Below the pieces are notes generated by a model. It saw only the letters and a program-made list of their open reading frames with translations, did no database searches and was not told the origin of the DNA. Of a stretch of 64,000 nucleotides of DNA, positions 1,067 to 33,186 are shown one piece after another. Made by a program: the position numbers and the translations under genes. The stretch lies in contig JAHEEE010000006.1 of NCBI GenBank assembly GCA_024640845.1, positions 28,579 through 92,578 of the forward strand, in the 5' to 3' direction. The first letter of the stretch is position 1. Each line of letters starts with the position of its first letter. Origin of the DNA: Myxococcales bacterium (GTDB taxonomy: Bacteria > Myxococcota_A > Polyangia > Polyangiales > Houyiibacteriaceae).

Positions 1067-2254
1067 ATGGTGGAAGTGAAGCTCGGCGATCGTTCCTTGT
1101 TTCCCAGTCTCGAGGGCGTGGCATACCTGGCCCACGCGGCGATATCACCGCTCTCGGCGCCGGTGTGCGCGCGTATCGCGGAGGTGACGCATGATTACGC
1201 TCGGGGCGGCATGGCGGGCTTCCTCCGCTGGGCGCCTCGGCTGCGGGAGGTGCGTCGCGACTTGGCCTCGTTGATCTCCGCCGAGCCGGACGAGATCGCA
1301 TTCGTCGCAAACACCACGCAAGGTGTGATCGATGTAGCCTTCGGAATCCCCTGGCGCGAGGGCGATCGAGTCGTGCTGTTCGACGGTGAGTTTCCCGCGA
1401 ATGTGACACCTTGGCAGCGGGCGGCAGAGGAGTTTCGACTCGATCTAACCTGGTTGCCCCTCAGCCCGTTCCACCGCTCGGTCGGCGAGGGGCTCGCGGA
1501 GCTCGAGAGGGAGCTCGAACGAGGTGTGCGTGTCGTCGCGGTGAGCGCGGTACAATACAAGACCGGCCTTCGTATGCCGCTCGCGGAGATGGCCGCGCTC
1601 TGCCACGAGTACGACGCCGAGATCTTCGTCGATGCCATTCAGGCGCTGGGCGCGACACCCGTGGACGTGACGTGGGGCATCGACTATCTGAGTTCGGGGA
1701 GTCACAAGCACTTGATGGGTGCGGAGGGGGCCGGCTTCCTCTACGTCGCCGACCGTTGCGCGGCCTCGCTACGCCCGAGGCTCGCGGGTTGGCTCGGTCA
1801 CGTAGACCCGGTCGCGTTTCTCACCGGCGACGAGCCGCGGCTTCGGTACGACAATCCGCTGAAGCTCGGCGCCCAGGCTCTCGAGATCGGGACAAGCAAC
1901 GTGATGGGTCTCGCAGGTCTCGGGGTCTCCCTCGAGCTTCTCTCACGACCGGGGGTCCCGGCGATTCATTCGCACGTTCAGGTCTACCTCGATCGCCTCG
2001 AAATCGGGTTGGCGGCGCGTGGCTTCGAAAGCCGGCGGTCGAACGACCCTTCGCTTCGCTCGACGCTCCTCGCCGTAGCTGTGCCTTCCGATGTACGGCT
2101 GAGCAAACTCGCGGCGGCGCTTCGTGACCGGGGCGTCATCTGCAACACCCCGGACGGCCTGATGCGGTTTGCGCCTCATTGGCCGAATTCACATGATGAG
2201 GTCCCCGTCGTCCTCGACGCAGTGGACCAGGCGCTGGCCGCTCTGCGCGCTTGA
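1067..2254 (+). CDS. aminotransferase class V-fold PLP enzyme (cysteine desulfurase-like)
   Basis: ATG 1067 within the longer ORF 704-2254; EIAFVANTTQGV, AEIFVDAIQALGATPVDV, SSGSHKHLMGAEGAGFLYV (PLP lysine motif). Confidence 0.8.
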   Translation: MVEVKLGDRSLFPSLEGVAYLAHAAISPLSAPVCARIAEVTHDYARGGMAGFLRWAPRLREVRRDLASLISAEPDEIAFVANTTQGVIDVAFGIPWREGDRVVLFDGEFPANVTPWQRAAEEFRLDLTWLPLSPFHRSVGEGLAELERELERGVRVVAVSAVQYKTGLRMPLAEMAALCHEYDAEIFVDAIQALGATPVDVTWGIDYLSSGSHKHLMGAEGAGFLYVADRCAASLRPRLAGWLGHVDPVAFLTGDEPRLRYDNPLKLGAQALEIGTSNVMGLAGLGVSLELLSRPGVPAIHSHVQVYLDRLEIGLAARGFESRRSNDPSLRSTLLAVAVPSDVRLSKLAAALRDRGVICNTPDGLMRFAPHWPNSHDEVPVVLDAVDQALAALRA

Positions 2255-24928: not shown

Positions 24929-24939
24929 GTTTAGTCACA

Positions 24940-25038
24940 CCCACCCACCCACCCCCACCACGTAATCCTCCCTCCGCGGCACTCGCTTCGCTCTGCCTTG
25001 GCGGCGCTTCGCGCCGGGCTTCGCCGTTCCGGCTCGCG
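24940..25038. repeat. hairpin-rich sub-block, first of two tandem-like copies 5' of the structured repeat
   Basis: CACCCACCCCCACCACGTAATCCTCCCTCCGCGG...GGCGGCGCTTCGCGCCGGGCTTCGCCGTTCCGGCTCGCG recurs at 25095-25192 and 32055-32152. Confidence 0.85.
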
Positions 25039-25075: not shown

Positions 25076-25483
25076 TGGGTTGGTTTAATAACATCCACCC
25101 GCCCACCCCCACCTCGTAATCCTCCCTCCGCGCGCTTCGCTTTGCTCGCGCTTGGCGGCGCATGCGCGCCGGGCTTCGCCGTTCCGGCTCGCGCTGCCGC
25201 GCATGTCTTGGGGCGAGGTCTCTTGCGTGCACACGCTGCCGCAGCCCTTTGGATGCGCAGAGTCGTTCATAAGGGGCTCGGAAAAACGCGATAGGGGTTG
25301 GAGCGGGCGTGCGAAGTGACAATCGGCAGGACAGCAACCACCCCCGATTGGCGCGCCGCACCGAGGGGCGGCGTGCGTGGCCTGACCTCCCCAGTTCTAC
25401 GGGCCACCTTTGCAGGCCGCCCCGTCCCGTGAAACCCCTATCGCGTTTTTCCGAGCCCCGTGTGCACCTAGCCGCCCGGGCGT
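25076..25483. repeat. dispersed structured repeat, copy 1 (27-bp inverted repeat 25273-25299 / 25433-25459)
   Basis: Near-gapless match to 32036-32443 (offset 6960); GGGGCTCGGAAAAACGCGATAGGGGTT and its perfect reverse complement separated by 133 nt. Confidence 0.92.
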
Positions 25484-31945: not shown

Positions 31946-32035
31946 GAGCTCCGTGGTCAGCGTCGGTGCGAGGGCTAGCGAGTGTGATTGGGGGCGGGAG
32001 GTTGCTGGCTGGAGGGTGGTCGGTGGGTGGGTTAG

Positions 32036-32443
32036 CTGGTTTGGTTTGGTAACATCCCCCCACCCACCCCCACCGCGTAGTCCTCCCTCCGCGGCCGTCG
32101 CTTCGCTCGGCCTTGGCGGCGCTACGCGCCGGGCTTCGCCCTTCGGGCTCGCGCTGCCGCGCATGTGATGGGGCAGGGTCTCTTGCGAGCACATTCTGTG
32201 GCAGCCCTTTTGATGCAAAGAGTCGTTCATAAGGGGCTCGGAAAAACGCGATGGGGGTTGGAGCGGGCGTGCGAAGTGACAATCGGGACAACAGCAACCA
32301 GCGCCGATTGGCGCGCCGCACCGAGGCGAGGCTTGCGTGGCCTCACCCTCCCAGTTCTTCCGGCCACCTATGCAAGCCGAGCCGTCCCGTGAAACCCCCA
32401 TCGCGTTTTTCCGAGACCCGTGTGTACCTCGACGCCCGGGCGT
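32036..32443. repeat. dispersed structured repeat, copy 2 (inverted repeat 32233-32259 / 32393-32419)
   Basis: GGGGCTCGGAAAAACGCGATGGGGGTT / AACCCCCATCGCGTTTTTCCGAGACCC separated by 133 nt; collinear with copy 1. Confidence 0.92.
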
Positions 32444-32463
32444 CCTGCCTTCCAGGGTCCCCA

Positions 32464-33186
32464 GTGCCGGCGTCGGTGCCAGTGCTAGTGTCCGTGCCAG
32501 TGCAAGCACCGGAGATCATCTTCCGCGATTCTGACCTCCTGGTCGTCCACAAGCCCCCCGGCCTTCCGACGACCGCGCCGTCCGCGGAGGATGCGTGCCT
32601 GGTGCGTTGGATCGAGGAGCGGTTCCCTGCGCTCCACGCTCATCCCACCTCACGGCTCGACTCTCCGGTCAGCGGCCTCGTCACCTTCGCGCTCAACAAG
32701 GCGGCGAACGAGCGCCTGCTCGAGGCGCGCCGTTCTGGGACCTACGAGCGACTCTACTTGGGCATCACTTTGCATGATCTCGAAGCCCCCGAAGGCACGT
32801 GGTCCTGGCCGATCTCGATCGACCCCAACAACGCCAAGCTCCGCATTGCGGGGGCGGGCAAGGGTGAACGCGACGCCCGCACACGATACGAAGTCAGCGC
32901 GCGTACGCCATACGCGTCGTTGCTTCACCTGATGCCCGAGACAGGACGCACCCATCAACTTCGCGTCCATGCAGCCCAAGCTGGCGTGCCGCTTTTCGGC
33001 GATCGCGCGTACGGGGGCGAGCGGCGCCTTTCGCTTGGCGACGGGAGCGTCGTCAGCGCCCGCCGCGTGATGCTTCACTGTGCACGGGTGGGCTTTCGAT
33101 GGGGCTCGACCTCGAAGCGATTCGAGGCGCGCCCACCTCAGGACATGGAGCGCGTCTGGACCGCGCTCGGTGGGATCTTCGGCTGA
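32464..33186 (+). CDS. RluA-family RNA pseudouridine synthase
   Basis: DLLVVHKPPGLPTT, SRLDSPVSGLVTFALNK, PETGRTHQLRVHAAQAGVPLFGDRAYGG; start uncertain among in-frame GTGs 32464-32500. Confidence 0.88.
   Translation: MPASVPVLVSVPVQAPEIIFRDSDLLVVHKPPGLPTTAPSAEDACLVRWIEERFPALHAHPTSRLDSPVSGLVTFALNKAANERLLEARRSGTYERLYLGITLHDLEAPEGTWSWPISIDPNNAKLRIAGAGKGERDARTRYEVSARTPYASLLHLMPETGRTHQLRVHAAQAGVPLFGDRAYGGERRLSLGDGSVVSARRVMLHCARVGFRWGSTSKRFEARPPQDMERVWTALGGIFG

Follow-up and report, generated by a model that had tools for sequence, protein, structure and literature searches.

A stretch of 64,000 nucleotides from a Myxococcales bacterium (hereafter the window) carries two copies of a repeat with long complementary arms and inner hairpins. 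The locus raises the question of what kind of sequence this is, what keeps its stems paired and how it came to lie between its present neighbours.

Two copies of a Y-shaped core in the window

The original prediction described copy 2 with arms at 32233-32259 and 32393-32419 that carry one mismatch and share their spacing with copy 1. A letter-by-letter recheck reproduces this pairing (1 of 27 positions mismatched, 133 nt apart), and the arms of copy 1 (25273-25299 and 25433-25459) pair without any mismatch over the same 133-nt spacing. The inner complementary segments of copy 2 are also present as claimed, both CAATCGG/CCGATTG (32280-32286 and 32304-32310) and GGCTTGCGTGGCC/GGCCACCTATGCAAGCC (32330-32342 and 32362-32378). 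As had been noticed, 25261-25320 and 32221-32280 differ at a single position out of 60 (A/G at 25293), and its partner in the opposite arm reads T/C, so that the pair is kept; in the flanking block 25201-25260, 12 of 60 positions are different between the copies. Both copies fold far better than dinucleotide-shuffled controls, with z = -7.6 for copy 2 and z = -10.2 for copy 1 and none of 200 shuffles equal in either case, and refolding with DNA parameters leaves the structure nearly unchanged.

The limits 32036-32443 originally given for copy 2 correspond to the extended form found in the window's own genome, which consists of a module A, the core and a tail with a palindrome, whereas cross-species alignment limits the conservation between species to the core at 32232-32421. 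Throughout the genus the core is about 190 nt long, starts with AGGGGCKCGGAAAA and finishes with TTTTCCGMGCCCCG. It folds into an outer stem of about 27 bp (P1), followed by the short P2, and at a three-way junction opens into the inner hairpins P3 and P4, which give it the shape of a Y. The covariance model matches copy 2 in the window with 195 bits (E 1.7e-38), copy 2 itself being among the training sequences. The features are as follows.

32232..32421, + strand: core of copy 2, a structured element of about 190 nt, common across the genus; covariance-model match
32233..32259, + strand: P1 outer stem, 5' arm; 1 of 27 mismatched with 32393-32419; covariation
32263..32268, + strand: P2, 5' strand, partner 32384-32390; minimum free energy fold; P2 pairs covary
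32269..32321, + strand: P3 inner hairpin, including CAATCGG/CCGATTG; fold; inner P3 cells 100% paired
32325..32383, + strand: P4 inner hairpin, GGCTTGCGTGGCC with GGCCAC..GCAAGCC, 4-nt asymmetric bulge; fold
32393..32419, + strand: P1 outer stem, 3' arm; fold, covariation and pairing recheck
32044..32153, + strand: module A at copy 2, GC-rich, 5' of the core; repeat family
32422..32444, + strand: 3' tail of the own-genome form; own-genome similarity stops just beyond
25272..25461, + strand: core of copy 1; covariance-model match of 192.5 bits; z = -10.2
24929..25038, + strand: module A, first copy at copy 1; family D2
25083..25192, + strand: module A, second copy at copy 1; family D2

Module A is a separate GC-rich repeat of 110 nt (CCCACCCCCACC..GCCTTGGCGGCGC..GGGCTTCGCC). 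It lies 5' of the core in the window's species and can also be duplicated or stand by itself behind a stop codon. The terminal palindrome of the tail is GACGCCCGGGCGTC (32431-32444). Own-genome copies contain GCGTAG within module A and CGTC within their 3' palindrome; neither forms a conserved end of the core. Hairpins of AAAAGGGGACAGTCCCCTTTT (L071, L072, L264, L213) lie immediately after stop codons, close to cores or at the flanks of a second Y1 gene, and may represent a further REP-like family of the genus.

Distribution of the core among genomes

BLAST of the repeat against its own genome (G000; 4.1 Mb, 145 contigs) locates about 30 full-length copies, plus about 10 truncated ones. Several of these copies are situated at contig ends, as is expected of a repeat that breaks assemblies. 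Homologues are present in 17 of the 18 other genomes of the genus, where the copy number ranges from 0 or 1 up to about 40 per species, and BLAST detected no core in 39 more distant relatives. The covariance model extends the family to five further genera of the order, of which two are represented by weak single matches (G024 and G072); carriers are G021 and G024 in the same family, G047, G071 and G072 in family f9, and G042. In a pattern search across named genomes, G047 could be linked with MAG Chersky.17_24, G021 with Myxococcota bacterium IP29b_bin.34, and others with Myxococcales MAGs.

The distant relatives keep the inner motifs and the junction; the letters of P1 differ, yet they pair. 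GUGCCAA, CUUGCGYGG, UGCAAG and CGUCCCC are retained across genera. The genome G047, which is 94% complete, has 12 copies, and several of them form inverted head-to-head pairs, for example 1141-1332 (- strand) and 1501-1692 (+ strand) of L152. The head-to-head cores at L152, L166, L172 and L176 are about 170-250 nt apart, and an outer tail, TTCGCCAAGATCTCTC, is common to several G047 copies. Such inverted doublets are not general within the window's genus. At the other extreme, L126 (G016) and L127 (G018) are lone cores in near-complete genomes with no Y1 transposase detected; their gene neighbourhoods differ and their non-coding flanks are similar. These two copies are perhaps relics.

None of 4227 Rfam families matches the core at the gathering threshold, and a relaxed threshold yields only weak matches, far below the gathering threshold and none of them credible. 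Collections of viral contigs, plasmids and phages contain no match to the core, and literature searches, which covered few subscription journals, found no such element described in Myxococcota.

The fold is maintained on a single strand

From 58 diverse copies RNAalifold derives a structure of 51 pairs, and 28 of these show changes on both sides. A prediction-free count over 58 copies finds 98.0% of cells paired against 87.0% in shuffles, and 298 double-change cells against 80; the covariation score is 0.337, compared with 0.132 in shuffles and at most 0.075 when the structure is slid along the alignment. In P4 about 99% of cells are paired and 9 of 15 pairs carry double changes. The + strand folds better than its complement in 57 of the 58 copies. 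Mismatches on the + strand are G-U in 238 cells and A-C in 8, cells which are not independent because the copies are related and which reduce to 18 against 6 when counted by columns; a single column, U-G in nearly all copies, contributes 57 of the 238. A DNA duplex is blind to the difference between G-U and A-C, and the large excess of G-U on the + strand hence points to constraint on a single strand, either RNA or single-stranded DNA. RNA accounts for the asymmetry no less well than single-stranded DNA does.

The original prediction had ascribed the conserved stems to selection or template correction. The covariation, the G-U excess, the better folding of the + strand and the recurrence of the Y-shape in distant genera give strong support to selection on a single-strand fold, and we conclude that the core is maintained as a folded single strand; correction of one arm by the other may play a part in P1. 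The reading that remains closest to template correction takes the repeat as a plain long DNA palindrome whose arms are equalised by template switching (quasi-palindrome correction) and whose fold is without function. P1 of G047 is what such a process might leave behind, as most copies have arms in perfect Watson-Crick complement (typically 29-30 of 30 positions pair) despite an identity between copies of only 0.33-0.90 (mean 0.66). In the distant copies, moreover, G-U mismatches in P1 are not clearly in excess (19 vs 9), and arm-to-arm correction may contribute there. However, correction should leave perfect pairs and no bias between strands, while P1 and P2 within the genus show many G-U and few A-C mismatches, and the short stems of P3 and P4 covary with sequence motifs kept in their bulges and loops. 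We therefore consider a functionless palindrome very unlikely.

Empty sites and recent amplification

Comparison with empty sites, proposed with the original prediction, reveals that copy 2 is a genuine insertion and not unrelated low-complexity GC sequence. The insert is bounded as follows.

31946..32500, no strand assigned: genome-specific insert from the PPDK stop to the RluA coding region (approximate); in 15 sister genomes the orthologous genes adjoin directly

In these 15 genomes the gap between PPDK and the RluA-like gene is at most about 80 bp and the element is absent (in one more genome a contig ends here, and another has a different neighbour), whereas the same gap in G000 spans about half a kilobase and holds module A, core and tail. 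The site of copy 1, at the end of the MCM gene, is empty or occupied by other repeats in most genomes; in G014 it contains module A without a core, and in G009 a core inverted relative to copy 1. A search for target-site duplications, also part of the original prediction, was less fruitful: neither a duplication nor a precise 5' end could be defined at the insertion boundaries, and the PPDK site, where the flanks are repetitive, shows no clear duplication. Degenerate short tandem repeats of the AGCGCCAGTGTC type adjoin elements in the window (31946-32000 and 32450-32510) and at L245. Intergenic repeats of this type are possibly insertion targets.

Comparison of the flanks of about 100 loci shows that several species share occupied gaps, which suggested orthologous inheritance of the sites. 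This idea is mostly rejected, because orientations are split (25 same and 28 opposite, with 53 of 58 comparisons on the same side) and same-site copies of different genomes mostly resemble each other no more than copies picked at random from the two genomes. Best identities within a genome reach 0.95-0.99. These observations are best read as recurrent insertion at hotspots together with recent amplification; a few same-site pairs, such as L058-L106, may be vertical.

The copies of one genome have no protein-coding flank in common. This bears on the idea that the core is a multicopy gene for a structured RNA that acts in trans (as guide, scaffold or part of an RNP) within an unknown system. Its strand-specific fold and the persistence of the inner motifs across genera while P1 changes freely would suit such an RNA. 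But no neighbouring gene is shared, and a copy number that runs from 0 or 1 to about 40 within one genus is unlike that of an essential RNA, so that a role in trans appears rather improbable to us.

Preference for the 3' ends of genes

The copies are found in convergent (44), tandem (24) and divergent (4) contexts, as against 49, 134 and 43 in sampled G013 stretches (p = 6e-13), with genes called by a simple, rough codon-usage caller and some neighbours missing at contig ends. Cores in G002, G004, G005, G012, G015 and G017 frequently have their 3' end 0-15 nt away from the convergent gene's stop codon. More distant genera have similarly short stop-codon distances, with a weaker convergent preference and less certain gene calls. 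The G013 assembly (a single record with runs of N) gave no usable GC skew for a replication-strand bias.

Such placement is what one would expect if the core were an RNA working in cis, as the sense tail of the upstream gene, where it could end or stabilise transcripts or block antisense transcription into the convergent neighbour, having spread as a mobile sequence and been kept as useful. The tolerance of G-U pairs, typical of RNA, agrees with this, as do the convergent preference and the short distances to the stop codon in several genomes and in other genera. On the other hand, both sites of the window lack the element in most sister genomes, and same-site copies are mostly not vertical. 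The T-run of an intrinsic terminator is also absent after the 3' arm, where the sequence is CGTGTGTACC, and without a U-run behind P1 the core is not an ordinary intrinsic terminator. We regard a primary role in cis as unlikely, albeit with a real chance of being correct.

Candidate mobilising enzymes

A stable, RNA-like folded unit in many copies could also be a retroelement, either SINE-like or derived from a retron or group II intron. The reverse transcriptase domain PF00078 is absent from 17 of the 19 genus genomes, including G000, and there is no Rfam match; we thus find this origin scarcely credible. A reverse transcriptase as partner was rejected, as PF00078 is missing from nearly all carriers of the genus.

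In several species of the genus a Y1 transposase gene lies between two genes which, read from sequence alone, we take to be mglA-like and leuS-like. It has terminal repeats such as TAGGGGACACTCTCCACCCC and follows immediately on the stop codon of the mglA-like gene. The gene at L216 (1462-2112), with orthologues at L211, L214, L215, L219 and L221, occupies a single inherited site and is TIRYT-like with its GGGGACA terminal repeats; TIR-associated Y1 transposases (TIRYT) have the motif GGGGWSAS (Di Nocera et al. 2013, PMC3733652). Of the seven structured copies in G009, six terminate in GGGGGGAGAATGTCCCC-type sequence at 75-87 nt past the core; this sequence is close to the Y1 repeats TAGGGGACACTCTCCACCCC.

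Y1 as a universal partner is unsupported, since it was not found in several carriers, above all G047, but also G009, G002 and G006. Conversely, G008 has a Y1 match and no core, and the flanks of the Y1 genes contain no core. The ends beyond the core differ among lineages, Y1-like ends of the GGGGGGAGAATGTCCCC type being confined to G009, so that a single mobilising system is not obvious. Y1 stays a lead because the G009 ends resemble the terminal repeats of the Y1 gene. On this sequence resemblance, mobility as single-stranded DNA through a Y1 enzyme is the leading, though unproven, candidate.

A small mobile element, probably recognised by its fold

The family size, the Y-shaped fold with its strand asymmetry, the mobility and the recurrent insertion into gaps at gene 3' ends, mostly convergent, are direct results of the comparisons above. 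They are best explained, with a probability of roughly 0.6, if the core is a small non-autonomous mobile element of Polyangia that is recognised by its fold, resembles REPIN and ERIC elements and is moved in trans. The fold would then be the recognition structure for a protein supplied in trans, which might pick up one strand and re-insert it. Y1 (HUH) transposases are believed to mobilise REP and REPIN elements in single-stranded form, and by analogy a transposase of this type may be the mover here. The location in intergenic regions at gene 3' ends could reflect an insertion preference combined with selection against insertions in genes and promoters. A bolder proposal is that the core represents a new mobile nucleic acid, a folded RNA or single-stranded DNA that guides insertion to sites behind stop codons by way of a protein recognising the Y-shape, in genomes that have neither a reverse transcriptase nor a known transposase to match; this we regard as a long shot.

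The family adds to the small mobile sequences of bacteria one that is supported by covariation, constrained on a single strand and present in several genera of one order. Copy numbers that run from one to about 40, together with many matched occupied and empty sites, make it a natural series for studying what mobilises small non-coding elements and whether their substrate is DNA or RNA in folded form. Should the fold act at gene ends, the family would also be relevant to how transcription stops in high-GC, convergently packed genomes.

Comparison with known systems

Like REP, BIME and REPIN sequences with their RAYT (Y1) enzymes, the core is non-coding, present in high copy, folded and palindromic, and intergenic at gene 3' ends. 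The 44 convergent, 24 tandem and 4 divergent contexts agree with the convergent and tandem location of REPs (GTAG/CGTC), and the inverted doublets of REPINs and BIMEs have a counterpart in G047. However, REPs are 20-40 bp long (PMC3733652) with a single hairpin, in contrast to a core of about 190 nt with two inner hairpins, a three-way junction and covarying stems. Where REPINs accompany a dedicated Y1 gene flanked by the element, a Y1 gene is present here in many carriers, not in all. With respect to TIRs and TIRYTs (PMC3733652), the element ends in G009 resemble the TIRs (GGGGACA..) that flank the Y1 gene of the genus, whereas own-genome elements end in GACGCCCGGGCGTC and TIR-like ends occur in one genome only. 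ERIC/RU-1 and YPAL/RU-2 (PMC2759123), likened here by features and not by sequence, are also intergenic, palindromic, non-autonomous mobile sequences of 100-200 nt with stable stem-loops; in enterobacteria they have a terminal TA and TA duplications (PMC2759123), neither of which is seen in the core family.

MITEs of DDE transposases are likewise short and non-coding with inverted-repeat arms. Their terminal inverted repeats are conserved, whereas P1 is hypervariable within G047, unlike in the window's own genome, and the inner hairpins are the conserved part. A DDE transposase is an unlikely fit, as an enzyme that reads sequence should not tolerate hypervariable arms. An integron attC site has a conserved R box (GTTRRRY) and is recombined by IntI; the hypervariable ends of P1 make this identity unlikely for the core. 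Since the defining features tested do not agree, we do not assign the core to a REP, MITE, retroelement or Rfam family. The family looks undescribed, close to REPIN- and ERIC-type elements in its behaviour, and much larger in its anatomy, with a conserved junction fold.
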